Positions 11,310-18,409 of a DNA stretch of 52,286 nucleotides are shown here, one piece after another. The stretch is from assembly GCA_026989015.1 (NCBI GenBank), contig JALSKD010000183.1:72462-124747 (forward strand), in the 5' to 3' direction. A program made the translations under genes and the position numbers. A model generated the notes under the pieces. That model saw nothing but the letters and a program-made list of their open reading frames with translations. It ran no database searches and was not told where the DNA came from. Position 1 is the stretch's first letter; every line of letters begins with the position of its first letter. This stretch comes from Gammaproteobacteria bacterium. GTDB taxonomy: Bacteria; Pseudomonadota; Gammaproteobacteria; GCA-001735895.

Positions 11310-11484
11310 GATGACGCGGATGGCGAAAAGGCGGCGATTCTACACCGAATGGCCCCGATGCACATCCGGGCCGGTTTGTCTCTTGCTTTTCAGGGCTTCA
11401 TCGCCATATGGAGTACAGCACTGAAACACCGGCCAATGAAGCCGGCCCAATACATGAAATTCAACCATCCCTGTGGAGATGAAC

Positions 11485-12744
11485 ATGAACATAACACGAT
11501 TCGATCCCGATCTGATGCATCTGGAACTGCTGGGCGATGACGAGCGCGGATACGATTTTCTGGACACTGACACACTGCTGGAACTCAAGCGCTATACCAG
11601 TGACCATGGCGTGCTCAGCGTCTATGCAGATCTGGGCGAAGGCGCCGATGCAGCGCTGACCCGCTACCGCAACCGGGTCCGCGCCTTGCGCGAAGCCCAT
11701 GAACAGGACTGGGACCACGAGCGCAAGCAGCAGTTCGATGCATTGACCGAAGAAGTCGCCGAGCACCTCGAGCGCTATTTCCAGGCACCGCGTGGCAAGG
11801 GTCTGGCGCTGTTCATTGCACCCGGACGGTTGCGGGTCAAGAAAGGCAAGCTGGATCATGAACTGCTGCGCGTCTTTCACCTGCCCGAAGCGCCTGCCGA
11901 TGAACTGCACTGGGGCAATACTCCGGCGCTGACCCAATTGCTGCTGCAACAGGACGAGCATCCGCCGACCGGGGTGGTGCTCTTCGATCGCGAACACCTG
12001 CGCTTCTTTCTCTACTACATGGGCGAGGCGGCCGAGTATTCGGTCAAGCTGGAGAACCCTGAACCGGTGCCCTTGACCCGCGCCCACAACTGGCACGGCT
12101 ACGGCACCCACAATCACCAGCAATGGCAGGAGGAGCACTACCGCCGCTATCTGCGCCAGGCGGCCATCGCGGTCGGCAAGCTGGCCGACAAGGCCGGCTG
12201 GAAATGGCTGGTGCTGGCCAGTCCGGACGGGCAGGAGGCGCAACATCTGACGGAAGCGCTGCAACGGCCCTGGAGCGAGCGGTTGATCGGCACCCTGACC
12301 CTGCCGCTGGCGGCCAACCTGAATGAACTGCGCGACGCGGTAGCCCCTGTGGTCGCCGAGGCGGAACGGAAGGAAGAGCAGGAAACGCTGGATCAGTGGA
12401 TCACCGAACTGGAGCGCCCGGAAGGCCGGGCCGTGGCCGGGCTGGCCGATACCGCTGAAGCGGTGCAGGAATACCGGGTACTGCACTTCATTGCCGACAG
12501 CGACTTCCATCATGCCGGCTGGCAGTGTACGGATTGCGGCAGCCTGATGGCGGACCTGCAGGCATCAGCACCCGAATCCTGCCCCTACTGTGGTTCGGAG
12601 CAACTGCAGGAACGCGCGGACATCGTCGGCGATCTGGCCTTGCAGGTGATCAACAGCGGTGGCCATGCCGAGATTGTACGCGAAGAGGACAACCGCCAGC
12701 GGGTCAACCGCCACGGACGGATCGGCGGTCTGCTGCGTTACTGA
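11485..12744 (+). CDS. bacterial eRF1/Vms1-like (baeRF, VLRF1) protein
   Basis: 419 residues from the ATG at 11485, chosen because GGAG (11475-11478) sits six bases ahead; in-frame GTG 11473 and ATG 11479 would overlap that site. The order of features resembles bacterial release-factor-1-like proteins: LSVYADLGEG opening, RGKGLALFIAP, GVVLFDREHLRFFLYYMGE, and KAGWKWLVLASP. Relatives in this superfamily (Vms1/ANKZF1, VLRF1) cleave peptidyl-tRNA on stalled ribosomes. The C-terminal part has a zinc ribbon: CTDC and CPYC pairs at about 350-372. Divergent from mfd. A role in ribosome rescue is inference from the fold; the closest group is probably baeRF family 10. Confidence 0.82.
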   Translation: MNITRFDPDLMHLELLGDDERGYDFLDTDTLLELKRYTSDHGVLSVYADLGEGADAALTRYRNRVRALREAHEQDWDHERKQQFDALTEEVAEHLERYFQAPRGKGLALFIAPGRLRVKKGKLDHELLRVFHLPEAPADELHWGNTPALTQLLLQQDEHPPTGVVLFDREHLRFFLYYMGEAAEYSVKLENPEPVPLTRAHNWHGYGTHNHQQWQEEHYRRYLRQAAIAVGKLADKAGWKWLVLASPDGQEAQHLTEALQRPWSERLIGTLTLPLAANLNELRDAVAPVVAEAERKEEQETLDQWITELERPEGRAVAGLADTAEAVQEYRVLHFIADSDFHHAGWQCTDCGSLMADLQASAPESCPYCGSEQLQERADIVGDLALQVINSGGHAEIVREEDNRQRVNRHGRIGGLLRY

Positions 12745-12836: not shown

Positions 12837-13490
12837 TCAGTTGGCCGCCTTGACGGTGGTCAGGCCGAGAATCTCCCAGTCCTGCATGCCGCCACGGTAC
12901 CACTTGATCTTGTGGGCCGGGTAGCCGAACTTGAGCAGGTTCTTGATGTTGTTCGGCGACTGCCCGCACCACATGCCGTTGCAGAACATGACCAGGGTCT
13001 TGGCATTGGTGTAGTCCCACAGGCCTTCGAGGTTCTTGGCGTTGAACTTGTCTTCCAGAATTTCGCCGATGGAAATCGGATCGGCGCCCTTGGCCGGATT
13101 CAGCGCGGTCCAGGGAATGTTGACGGAACCGGGGATGGTGCCCTTGGCGGCCCAGTCGGGTGTGCGTGAATCGATGACCATGATGCTGTCGTCGGTCTGC
13201 ATCTGCTTCAGGTAGTTGATGACCTCGACTTCACCGATGGTCTCGACGCCCGGAGCCAGCTTGGCCGGCTGGATGCAGAAGGGCGGGCACTTGCGCGAGG
13301 TCTTGGCGAAGGCCGGGTTGACGGTGTTCTTCTGGTCCTGGTTGCGCATGATCTTGACCATCTTGCTGCCGTGCTTGACGGTGATGCTTTCGAGATCGGG
13401 CGTGATGTTGACGGCTGCGGCCGAAGCAGAGCCGGTGAATGCAAGGCCGAGGGCCAGTGCGCCAGCGGTAAGCAGTGTGTGGAATTTCAT
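12837..13490 (-). CDS. periplasmic rhodanese-like protein
   Basis: 217 residues from the ATG at 13490, which begins a good signal peptide (MKFHTLLTAGALALG to ASA). An upstream extension to 13592 would bury it. The rhodanese domain covers the C-terminal two thirds: DDSIMVIDSRTPDW, then IPGSVNIPW, then the active-site loop FCNGMWCGQS with the predicted persulfide cysteine first in the loop, and ending YRGGMQDW. The N-terminal 70 residues, with a CPPFC pair, are an additional module of unknown role. Such exported rhodaneses are frequent in sulfur-metabolising bacteria. It lies downstream of a small secreted acidic protein on the same strand, with a strong hairpin between them. Confidence 0.92.
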   Translation of the reverse strand: MKFHTLLTAGALALGLAFTGSASAAAVNITPDLESITVKHGSKMVKIMRNQDQKNTVNPAFAKTSRKCPPFCIQPAKLAPGVETIGEVEVINYLKQMQTDDSIMVIDSRTPDWAAKGTIPGSVNIPWTALNPAKGADPISIGEILEDKFNAKNLEGLWDYTNAKTLVMFCNGMWCGQSPNNIKNLLKFGYPAHKIKWYRGGMQDWEILGLTTVKAAN

Positions 13491-13560
13491 GTGATTTCCT
13501 CCATCAGGATAGTGCGTGGGTATCGTTATCGACGACCGGACGGCCGTCATTTTATTCTCA

Positions 13561-14376: not shown

Positions 14377-14598
14377 CGGTTTCTCCATGACTCAGGGTCG
14401 TTGTCGTTGCCACAACTATAGCATGTGGGAGGGGGTCGGCAACTGCCGTTGAGGCGTAGCGCGGGTCCGGGGTCGCAGCGCACCGCGCTGTCTGCCTGTC
14501 TCACTGCGGCCGGAACTCCATCTGTCGTTTCTGTAATGGTTTCGTTACCCGGCGCCTTTACTGTGTGCGCATCACAACACGCAAATCAGGTGCACACC

Positions 14599-16467
14599 AT
14601 GAAACGAAACCTTCTGTATACCGCCGTCGTCCTGGCTCTGGGCGTCACTGCCTGCAGCAGCAACAATGACGGAGAAAAAGCCGTTACCGGCATCGCCTTC
14701 GCGCCGCTCGCAGTGTCGGCCAATGATGCGGAGAAACAGCAGATGCGCGTCTCCAGTACGCTGACCGTGAGCTACGACGACGGCAGCCAGCAGGAGTATC
14801 CGCTCGCGTACCGGACGCTGGCCAAAATGGGCGATACGATCGGCTCCGGTGTCATGGGGCTGATGGTGGACATGACGGGTCAGCCACTGGCCCGGGAGGA
14901 TGGCTCGCAGGATATCTCCGACGGACCGGACGGCAATTCCTTCATCAAGGTCGGGGATCAATACCGACTGATCACCCACCTGGAGGAGCGCCCTGGTCAG
15001 CTGATGGATACGGTCATCGAGGTGAACAGCGGAATGCTGACGCCGGTGGATACCCATCCGGTGGATCTGTCGGCCATCGGCGGCACCATCATCAACTGCG
15101 CCAGCTCCAAGACCGATTACGGCAGCCACCTGGGTGGTGAGGAAAACTATTCGCTGAACTCGGTCTATGCCGACGCCGACTCGCCCTATTTCGTGGATTG
15201 CGCGCTGGATGGCAGCGGTAGTGACGGCAACGGCGAGTTCAATTATTTCTGCAACTATGTGGAGCAGCAGTCCCGTTATCTCGGGGATACGCAGGTGGAC
15301 AAGGCCAATGGCTACAACGGTGAACGCTTCCGGCCCTACAACTACGGGTATATCGTCGAGGTCCAGCCTTTGCCCGACGGGTCCACGCGCAGCGCAAAAC
15401 ACTATGTGACCGGTTCCTACACCCCGGAGCTGGCGGTGATGATGCCCGACGGCAAGACCCTGTACATGAGCGATGACGGAACCGCCAAGGGCTTGTGGAA
15501 ATTCGTTTCCGACCGGTCGATCGAGGAATTCTCCGACAACTGGAGCGGCACACTGTATGCGGCGCGCGTGACCCAGACTTCGGCTCAGGGCGGGGGTGCG
15601 TTCACCCTGAGCTGGATCGAGCTGGGACATGCCAGCGACAATGCGCTCAAGGCGTTGATCGACGGCGGGCTGAAGCTGATGGACATCTTCGATATCCAAC
15701 TGCCGGACGACAGCAACAACTGTCCGGCCGGTTTCTCCTATGTCTTCGAAGACAGCCGCAGCGAGTGCCTCAGGCTCAAGCCGGGCATGGAAACCGCGGC
15801 CGCATTCCTCGAGTCGCGCAAGTATGCCGGCGTGCTGGGCGCGACCCTCGAGTTCCGCAAGGAAGAGGGCATGACCTATGACCCGGACCGCAATGTGCTC
15901 TACATCGCGATGAGTGCGGTGGAAAAGAGCATGGAGGAAGGCTACAAGGGCAAGGAGAAGGCCGACCACATTCGTCTGCCGAAGGAAGCCTGTGGCGCCG
16001 TTTATGAAATGACCCTGGACAATCAGTACAACGGCATTTCGCTCAAGGGGCTGCTGCTCGGTTCGACCCTGGATGCATCCGATCCGGCGGCGGAAGAATG
16101 GTATTGCGACCCCAATGGCATTGCCAATCCCGACAACATTACCTACATCGGCCACGACACGCTGCTGGTCAGCGAAGACACCACCAAGCATGTCAACAAC
16201 ATGACCTGGGCCTACAACACCCGGGACGGTTCACTGACGCGCGTTGCCTCGCTGCCGATCGGCGCCGAGGTGACCGGAGTCGATGTCGGGGTTGCCGGAG
16301 ACAAGGGCATGATCTTCCTCAACGCCCAGCACCCCTTCCAGGACAACCCCAAGAACCGGGCCGGTGACCGGCCCAATACGGCACTGCTGCAGAATGCCAG
16401 CGATGAACAGCTCAAGGCCTTCATCGGCTACATCGACGGCATTCCCGCGGATGTGCTGAACCAGTAA
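14599..16467 (+). CDS. PhoX-like (DUF839) lipoprotein
   Basis: 622 residues from the ATG at 14599, which begins MKRNLLYTAVV and reaches a lipobox VTAC at about residue 19, so the mature protein is probably lipid-anchored. The body matches PhoX/DUF839 beta-propeller phosphatases: CASSKTDYGSHLGGEENY (family pattern C..S.T.WG..L..EEN), MSDDGTAKGLWKF, and DNITYIGHDTLLVSEDT. PhoX enzymes are calcium/iron-dependent phosphomonoesterases, and several acidic ligand positions appear present. No Tat motif is seen, whereas classic PhoX is Tat-exported. The next gene encodes a diheme lipoprotein 247 bases downstream on the same strand. Phosphatase activity is likely but unproven. Confidence 0.88.
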   Translation: MKRNLLYTAVVLALGVTACSSNNDGEKAVTGIAFAPLAVSANDAEKQQMRVSSTLTVSYDDGSQQEYPLAYRTLAKMGDTIGSGVMGLMVDMTGQPLAREDGSQDISDGPDGNSFIKVGDQYRLITHLEERPGQLMDTVIEVNSGMLTPVDTHPVDLSAIGGTIINCASSKTDYGSHLGGEENYSLNSVYADADSPYFVDCALDGSGSDGNGEFNYFCNYVEQQSRYLGDTQVDKANGYNGERFRPYNYGYIVEVQPLPDGSTRSAKHYVTGSYTPELAVMMPDGKTLYMSDDGTAKGLWKFVSDRSIEEFSDNWSGTLYAARVTQTSAQGGGAFTLSWIELGHASDNALKALIDGGLKLMDIFDIQLPDDSNNCPAGFSYVFEDSRSECLRLKPGMETAAAFLESRKYAGVLGATLEFRKEEGMTYDPDRNVLYIAMSAVEKSMEEGYKGKEKADHIRLPKEACGAVYEMTLDNQYNGISLKGLLLGSTLDASDPAAEEWYCDPNGIANPDNITYIGHDTLLVSEDTTKHVNNMTWAYNTRDGSLTRVASLPIGAEVTGVDVGVAGDKGMIFLNAQHPFQDNPKNRAGDRPNTALLQNASDEQLKAFIGYIDGIPADVLNQ

Positions 16468-16714
16468 GGGTTGGCGGGTCTGCGCGGTCCTGGCCGCCAC
16501 GGTGCTTCACGGGGCAGGGACGCTGGAAGTATCTGACTGTTCGATCAGGGCGATCGGGACCGCGCAGACAGCAGTGAACACGGTTGCGTTGCTTCCGGGG
16601 GCCGGCCGCCGGCTGCGGCGATCGGCGCTCCAGGAAGGGCGAACCGGTTCACACCAGCCCCCACCCGCCGGGCATGCGCAGCATGGTCGGCATTTTTTTT
16701 GGAGAATCACACCC

Positions 16715-18409
16715 ATGAACCGGATGCGGTTGCTTGCCATCATCCTGACACCTGTGCTGGCCGCTTGCGGTGCGGCAGAGACGGGGACAACCGAGACCCT
16801 GAATCAGTACCTGTCTCGCCTCGAAGCGGAAAACGGGGTGCGTTTTCGCGGCATCAGCCATAGCCGGGGCGCCTATGTGACGCCCATGTGCTACACCCGT
16901 ACCGATGACGGCGACGGCACCCTGCACAACCCCTGCTACAGCTGCCATACGCGGGGAAAGACGCCCAATTTCTACAACGATGCGCGGCTGCAGAAGGCCT
17001 ACAGCTTCCCGGAACCCCTGCGGGACAATCCTTTCACCAACCTGCTTGAGGACCACAGTGCCGAGGTGATGCGTATCAGCGATCAAGCGGTGCTGGAGAC
17101 CGTGCGTGAGGACAACTACCGCGATTCGGCGGGGAGGATCCGGCTGGCACAGGAGCTGCCGGAACAGTGGAAGGGCTATCGGCCCGATTGCCATTTCAAT
17201 TTCGATGAACAAGGGTTCGACCGAGACCCCGAGGGGCGGATGACAGGCTGGCGGGCGTTTCGCTACTACCCCTTTCCGGGCACCTTCTGGCCCACCAACG
17301 GATCCGCCGATGATGTGCTGATTCGCCTGCCGGAAGCCTTTCGCGAAAACACGGCCGGCCAGCCGGACCGGGAAATCTATCGGCTCAATCTGGCCATCGT
17401 CGAGGCGCTGGTCAAGCAGAAGGACATTCGCCTCGAGGTGCCGGCAAACGAGGTGGATTATGGCATCGATCTGAACAACGACGGCCAGCTGGCAACGGCC
17501 GACCGGGTCGCCTTCCGCTTTGAGCCTCCGTTGCGTTATGCAGGGCGGGCCGGGCTTCTGCTGGGGCAGGGGGCCGTGCACCTTGCGCCCGGACTGTTTC
17601 CGGAAGGCACCGAATTTCTGCACAGCGTGCGTTATCTGGATTGGGATGAACGGGCTGCCGAAGTCCGTCTTGCACCGCGCATGAAGGAATTGCGCTACGC
17701 GCGCAAGACAGACTGGATGAACTACAGCGAGCTGGAGCGCGCCGCGCGCGCCGAAATGTACGAGGCCGAGGTCAATGATTTGAGCCAGGGCGTGCTGGCC
17801 GTCTTCCGCGGCACTTTCGAGGAAGGCTTGAACACGGACAGCGGCTGGGTCTTCCAGGGCTTCATCGAGGACCGTCAGGGCTGGCTGCGGCCGCAGACGG
17901 AAGAAGAAACGCTGTACTGCATGGGTTGCCACAGCCATCTGGGCGCGACCACCGACTCGGTGTTCGCCTTCCCGAGAAAATTCGAGGGCATTGCGGAAGA
18001 TGACCCGCTGCAAGGCTGGAAGCACTGGTCACAAAAGGGACTGACCGGTGTGCCCGAACCCCGGGTGGCCTATGTTGGTGTGGGGGAGCGTCATGAGTAC
18101 AGCTTCTACCTGCGCAACAATCATTCCGGCAATGAATTCCGTAATAACGATGAAGTGAAGCAGAAATTCTTCGATGCAGCCGGCGCCATCCGCAACGATC
18201 GGCTCGACGCGCTACACGCGGACATCAGCCTGTTGCTTTTGCCCGGCCGTCAGCGGGCGCTGGAGCTCGACAAGGCCTACCGGGTCCGCGTGCGGGAGCA
18301 GAGTTACATCCGCGGTCGAGAAGCCAATGTGCACGCGGTGGAGACGCTGTGGCGGCGGGTGGAGCCGGGGCAGGCCACAGGCATCGATACGCCCATCGTC
18401 CGCGAGTGA
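16715..18409 (+). CDS. diheme cytochrome c lipoprotein
   Basis: 564 residues from the ATG at 16715, with GGAGA nine bases upstream. MNRMRLLAIILTPVLAAC gives a signal peptide with lipobox LAAC. Two CxxCH heme-binding motifs occur: CYSCH (74-78) and CMGCH (402-406), more than 300 residues apart, so two separate heme regions are likely. Near residue 250 the segment DLNNDGQLATAD looks like an EF-hand or dockerin-type calcium loop. The intervening sequence matches no family I recognise. It follows the PhoX-like lipoprotein, and both should be envelope-anchored, so electron transfer linked to that protein is a reasonable guess. The 247-base gap between them holds no other gene that I can see. Confidence 0.88.
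   Translation: MNRMRLLAIILTPVLAACGAAETGTTETLNQYLSRLEAENGVRFRGISHSRGAYVTPMCYTRTDDGDGTLHNPCYSCHTRGKTPNFYNDARLQKAYSFPEPLRDNPFTNLLEDHSAEVMRISDQAVLETVREDNYRDSAGRIRLAQELPEQWKGYRPDCHFNFDEQGFDRDPEGRMTGWRAFRYYPFPGTFWPTNGSADDVLIRLPEAFRENTAGQPDREIYRLNLAIVEALVKQKDIRLEVPANEVDYGIDLNNDGQLATADRVAFRFEPPLRYAGRAGLLLGQGAVHLAPGLFPEGTEFLHSVRYLDWDERAAEVRLAPRMKELRYARKTDWMNYSELERAARAEMYEAEVNDLSQGVLAVFRGTFEEGLNTDSGWVFQGFIEDRQGWLRPQTEEETLYCMGCHSHLGATTDSVFAFPRKFEGIAEDDPLQGWKHWSQKGLTGVPEPRVAYVGVGERHEYSFYLRNNHSGNEFRNNDEVKQKFFDAAGAIRNDRLDALHADISLLLLPGRQRALELDKAYRVRVREQSYIRGREANVHAVETLWRRVEPGQATGIDTPIVRE

Follow-up and report, generated by a model that had tools for sequence, protein, structure and literature searches.

Among microbial phosphatases, PhoX is a major one in both seas and soils; MauG and MbnH are diheme enzymes acting by modification of partner proteins. 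We know of no heme protein that is a standard member of phosphate-starvation gene sets, and the literature searched disclosed none there, nor anything relevant on PhoX accompanied by a diheme or cytochrome partner. Canonical PhoX binds two Fe3+ and three Ca2+ ions, the iron being held by a thiolate, and is exported via the Tat pathway after metal loading that was proposed to occur in the cytoplasm (PMC4223295). Other functions engaged under phosphate limitation include plcP-agt and ornithine lipids (PMC9239053). Here we describe a gene pair found in a 52,286-nucleotide stretch of gammaproteobacterial DNA (hereafter the window), composed of a PhoX-family gene (A) and, downstream of it on the plus strand, a gene for a two-heme protein (B); as far as the literature searched shows, this pair is undescribed. 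A preliminary description of the window had taken both products for lipoproteins encoded in the same direction, which is borne out by Sec-type signals and lipoboxes in the two sequences. The following positions are relevant for A:

14599 to 16467, plus strand: gene A, PhoX-family (PF05787) lipoprotein, probable Fe/Ca phosphomonoesterase according to Pfam, AlphaFold and Foldseek
15097 to 15099, plus strand: Cys167 of A, aligned with the Fe ligand Cys179 of PhoX and invariant in 60 homologues
15859 to 15861, plus strand: Lys421 of A, aligned with the PhoX Arg385 position and invariant in 60 homologues
16468 to 16714, plus strand: intergenic gap of 247 nt between A and B, holding no promoter-like or terminator-like match on this strand

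The product of A (622 residues, MKRNLLYTAVVLALGVTAC, as read from the window ORF) matches PF05787 with 93.4 bits (E 2.4e-26, gathering cut-off 24), found no counterpart in an NCBIfam scan and represents the sole PhoX gene found in the source genome. Its AlphaFold model (pLDDT 94.2), compared with the PDB by Foldseek, retrieves as the best two matches P. fluorescens PhoX, 3zwu (E 1.4e-21) and 4a9v (E 1.3e-20), with the next one at E 6.6e-7, that is, after a gap of about 13 orders of magnitude; overall identity to PhoX is low, 16% by structure. The metal-ligand alignment to PhoX, proposed in the preliminary description, puts Cys167 opposite Cys179 via the motif NCA..KT.(W/Y)G..L..EEN, and Glu181/182, Glu277, Asp292/293 and Glu423 are either aligned with PhoX or invariant in 60 homologues; Cys179 and the acidic residues are those which we take to be the PhoX ligands. 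Thus fold, iron-ligand cysteine, acidic residues and the GAEVTG..QHP blade are common to both proteins, whereas the group of A differs by its Sec signal, by frequent lipoprotein nature, by Lys421, by the heme partner gene and by permutation in some members. Arg385, presumably a part of the PhoX substrate pocket, is replaced by lysine in 60/60 homologues. The Tat signal of canonical PhoX is absent from A, and by a simple pattern at most one of 64 relatives carries a Tat-like signal, the canonical PhoX of L165 being distinguished by a Tat-type SRRGFLK, so this subgroup looks Sec-exported by such prediction; lipoboxes among the relatives are common, not universal.

The preliminary description had doubted that A is a phosphatase, and the lysine in all homologues together with the low identity to PhoX would suit a PhoX-fold binding or redox protein that is no longer a phosphatase, in which case the pair would form an electron-transfer unit induced along with phosphate genes. 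We regard this as unlikely, given that the aligned iron-ligand cysteine and acidic residues are invariant and that relatives of the pair reside among phosphate-starvation genes. Since this context and Pho-box-like repeats (both described below) point to phosphate starvation, A is probably of phosphatase type, changed in two ways: by Sec instead of Tat export and by the invariant lysine in place of Arg385.

Two structural variants were noticed among A proteins. In about ten from the class (L034-L037, L041, L043-L045, L049 and L050) the GAEVTG..QHP blade is N-terminal, not C-terminal, which by sequence order is a circular permutation of the PhoX propeller; the literature searched yielded nothing relevant on permuted PhoX. 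Four others (L105, L109, L115 and L123) extend to about 1200 residues, and Pfam scans of L105 and L109 showed a choice-of-anchor I domain behind PhoX in both.

Gene B and its elements are located as follows:

16715 to 18409, plus strand: gene B, di-c-heme lipoprotein lacking a curated family model and having a P460-like heme segment (ORF, Pfam, NCBIfam, alignment, model)
16889 to 16891, plus strand: Cys59 of B, invariant cysteine with no constant disulfide partner in the 64-homologue alignment
16934 to 16948, plus strand: first heme site, CYSCH, residues 74-78, invariant in 64 homologues
17468 to 17503, plus strand: EF-hand-like loop DLNNDGQLATAD, residues 252-263, recognised by sequence and kept in homologues
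17621 to 17623, plus strand: His303 of B, candidate axial heme ligand, fully invariant in the homologue alignment
17918 to 17932, plus strand: second heme site, CMGCH, residues 402-406, inside the P460-like segment (motif, sub-threshold Pfam match, hhalign)

B encodes 564 residues (MNRMRLLAIILTPVLAAC) if started from ATG 16715, which was taken instead of GTG 16502, the latter merely opening the longest mechanical ORF. The diheme character, the distance of 328 residues between the CxxCH motifs and the EF-hand-like loop, all reported initially, proved to be conserved: in 64 homologues both heme sites are invariant, their spacing ranges within 320-352, and the loop recurs as VDLN/D-x-N/D-G-x-L. 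His303 is the sole fully invariant histidine outside CxxCH (His437 reaches 97%), and Lys324 and Lys331 are invariant as well, a Lys-heme cross-link being a feature of cytochrome P460. No Pfam or NCBIfam model matched B above cut-off. The closest described family is cytochrome P460 and c′-beta (PF16694), which B resembles locally at the second CxxCH (GW..., C.GCH..D..F), scoring 22.6 bits there against the Pfam cut-off of 27; comparison with the P460 profile by hhalign gave a local match over 60 columns (E 6e-5, probability 64%). However, B exceeds this family about fourfold in length, carries two hemes and does not match it in global fold: the AlphaFold model (pLDDT 93.7) found by Foldseek no PDB fold with E <0.001, its weak best matches being P460 and cytochrome c′-beta (E ~0.1), and PDB searches with the sequence or profile of B returned nothing useful. 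Most members have only two CxxCH sites. About nine long B proteins (L070, L073, L077, L081, L090, L094, L102, L121 and L127), mostly from Desulfobacterota and Geobacter, were also seen, and those read or scanned have a third CxxCH as well as a PD40/TolB-like propeller at the C-terminus.

A disulfide between Cys59 and Cys159 was considered and rejected as a general feature, as 13 of the 64 homologues lack Cys159 and have no other spare cysteine. Because Cys59 has no constant disulfide partner, it may serve as a heme ligand or be catalytic. This unpaired invariant residue, as well as a dedicated diheme protein encoded beside a putative substrate, would fit covalent modification of A by B to finish the active site, by analogy with MauG and MbnH, which share with B two c-type hemes and a gene position next to the partner protein. 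Yet B has no match to the MauG/CCP family (PF03150) in Pfam, while a scan of the same type does detect this family in a neighbour of one relative (L125:1769-3217, a MauG/CCP-type diheme protein overlapping the B end by a few bases), and A-type PhoX exists without B, all of which makes such modification quite improbable.

Searched with its single sequence against contigs of the named genome collection, B had no relatives; an 18-sequence alignment found at least 557. According to record titles they belong to Campylobacterota, Gammaproteobacteria, Alphaproteobacteria, Desulfobacterota-type bacteria, Deferribacteraceae, Leptospiraceae, Sulfurihydrogenibium and Thermodesulfovibrionales, and the marine heterotrophs Bowmanella and Pseudoalteromonas also carry the pair. 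Among 80 relatives kept of the at least 557 listed, seven lie at contig ends, and in 70 of the 73 judgeable loci A is immediately upstream of B on the same strand; the remaining three comprise two Leptospiraceae with A 1.3-1.4 kb upstream and one locus without A. In both Leptospiraceae an outer-membrane-like protein is encoded between the genes (L078:3642-4910 and L118:3477-4898), that of L078 matching no Pfam family. Within the class B is present in 19/369 genomes and A-type PhoX in about 26, mostly together against about 1.3 expected, and B was detected in 8/399 genomes drawn from the phylum. Among 22 loci from the search of the class and two records of Pseudoalteromonas (one of them with an annotated PhoX followed by a hypothetical protein), A directly precedes B in 16. 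Contig ends truncate two of these loci (L030 and L042), the A-type gene in the genome of L030 also being near a contig end; L040 has reversed order with a PhoX-family gene directly downstream of B, and L033, L038, L047 and L048 contain no PhoX gene upstream. L047, L048 and L004 represent a divergent subfamily, B2, without adjacent PhoX; L047 and L048 adjoin FMN-binding and PepSY-type genes, and L048 also a gene for a beta-barrel protein, perhaps forming, as judged from these neighbours, an iron-related electron route.

Clustering of ORFs from these loci together with the window, over about 8 kb in 23 gammaproteobacterial loci, left only A and B broadly shared, other clusters near the pair being shadow frames of A or B or common to few loci. 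In the window itself the pair is preceded by a gene with a baeRF family 10 match and a zinc-ribbon-like stretch at the C-terminus (11473-12744, plus strand) and by one for a rhodanese-like, apparently exported protein weakly similar to PQQ-associated CXXCW proteins (12837-13499, minus strand). Between loci, the pairwise distances for A track those for B, with r 0.81 (47 loci) against a maximum of 0.17 in 1000 permutations. The pair is thus a real conserved two-gene module; the initial suggestion that the two belong together holds after the neighbourhood check, and lack of conservation, named there as grounds for abandoning it, is clearly contradicted. Nearest to the window pair, among the matches listed, are one gammaproteobacterial MAG and then mostly Campylobacterota, and for this reason the similarity patterns suggest that both genes were transferred jointly between Campylobacterota and Gammaproteobacteria. 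Such transfer would agree with adjacency reflecting co-transfer or shared regulation alone, with no functional coupling, but A and B retain their order in many phyla amid neighbours that all differ, and we consider this explanation very improbable.

Dependence between the partners appears asymmetric. A-type PhoX is encoded without B in about 10 of the ~26 class genomes, where the flanks inspected hold no B-type gene; hence B looks the more dependent of the two. Most of the B-less proteins inspected also look Sec-exported by the simple pattern, so a Sec-exported A does not strictly need B, and the idea of a strict requirement is weakened.

In about 11 of the 80 loci kept (of at least 557) the pair has pstSCAB/phoU, olsF or plcP/agt-like genes beside it. 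It is embedded in the order PstS..A-B-PstC-PstA-PstB-PhoU-regulator in L065 and lies between PstS and PstCAB in L126, where OlsF is also present; B is followed by PstSCAB and PhoU in L061 and by OlsF and PstSCA in L097, and L052, L058 and L071 have OlsF and/or PstS nearby (OlsF in the first two). In those members that were scanned, OlsF, PstS, PstB and PhoU scored above their NCBIfam cut-offs. L069, L108 and L125 encode a calcineurin-like phosphoesterase together with a GT4-type transferase; the two resemble PlcP-Agt, a putative name given by the domain pair and adjacency. Loci of Campylobacterota and Thiotrichaceae supply most of these phosphate-related neighbours. Of 61 regions upstream of A, 9 contain the Pho-box-like repeat TGTMA-N6-TGTMA, with 11-bp period, compared with 0.17 in shuffles, and enrichment is confined to this period, other spacings giving at most one of 61 regions; scanning for Campylobacter PhosR boxes revealed no convincing enrichment. 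For the window one element was registered:

14531 to 14549, plus strand: weak candidate Pho box CTGTAATGGTTTCGTTACC by a relaxed pattern, its half-sites at 11-bp period, about 50 nt ahead of the start codon of A

The pattern was relaxed after the sites had been seen, and its single match in 52 kb compares with about one expected by chance from base frequencies, so that this site is no more than suggestive. In the upstream region of the closest relative among the matches listed, TTGTAACGGTGTTGTCATC aligns with it, and pstS of the source genome has a similar box, TTGTCACAAAGCCGTCATA. Altogether, gene context and repeats suggest that the phosphate-starvation response of many lineages includes the pair, and the source organism may regulate it likewise.

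Retention of the pair in unrelated bacteria, often among phosphate-starvation genes, suggests a phosphatase working with a redox partner, and the coupling of a PhoX-type propeller to a heme protein, initially supposed to be new, appears a fair reading and has no precedent in the literature searched. Our preferred, still tentative, explanation is an extracytoplasmic phosphate-scavenging module, in which A would be a PhoX-fold Fe(III)/Ca phosphomonoesterase, Sec-exported and anchored as a lipoprotein, while B would be its dedicated partner that matures the Fe/Ca centre or exerts redox control over it, with one of two hemes in the P460-like segment. B could exchange electrons with A or its iron, and would most likely load the iron or keep it as Fe(III) outside the cytoplasm, in contrast to canonical Tat-exported PhoX, proposed to be loaded inside. 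In favour of this module we count the adjacency in judgeable loci, the lack of other broadly shared neighbours, the co-occurrence in class genomes, the PhoX-family partner found even with reversed order (L040), the correlated distances, the invariant iron-ligand cysteine and acidic residues, the phosphate context and the upstream Pho-box-like repeats, and against it the B-less A-type PhoX, the lysine for Arg385, the weak Pho box of the window, the origin of phosphate neighbours from few lineages and the sub-cut-off likeness of B to P460.

The main rival to maturation or redox control, which we rate as rather unlikely, assigns substrate-releasing redox chemistry to B: as a surface or periplasmic oxidoreductase it would free phosphate, for example by reducing phosphate-binding Fe(III) or by converting a phosphorus compound that is reduced or organic, with A hydrolysing the released product, so that the two act sequentially. 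Relatives derive, by record titles, largely from iron- and sulfide-rich habitats, though the pair is also found in Bowmanella and Pseudoalteromonas; the FMN-binding, PepSY membrane and beta-barrel (L048) genes beside B2 look like electron supply, but B2 is a divergent branch; and the third CxxCH with the PD40 propeller of Desulfobacterota and Geobacter is offset by the two sites of most members. The outer-membrane-like protein of Leptospiraceae, of no known family, also speaks for this rival. Electrons might even pass between B and the di-iron centre of A, though we consider this unlikely; A would then be a phosphatase gated by redox state or an enzyme of phosphorus redox chemistry, and phosphate scavenging would, if this is true, be coupled directly to electron transfer.

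PhoX needs iron, and therefore the cycles of iron and phosphorus are linked. A widespread PhoX subgroup with a previously undescribed heme partner would mean that its phosphatases depend on redox chemistry outside the cytoplasm, and it would assign a function to a heme-protein family with at least 557 matches, whose member in the window has no Pfam or NCBIfam model.
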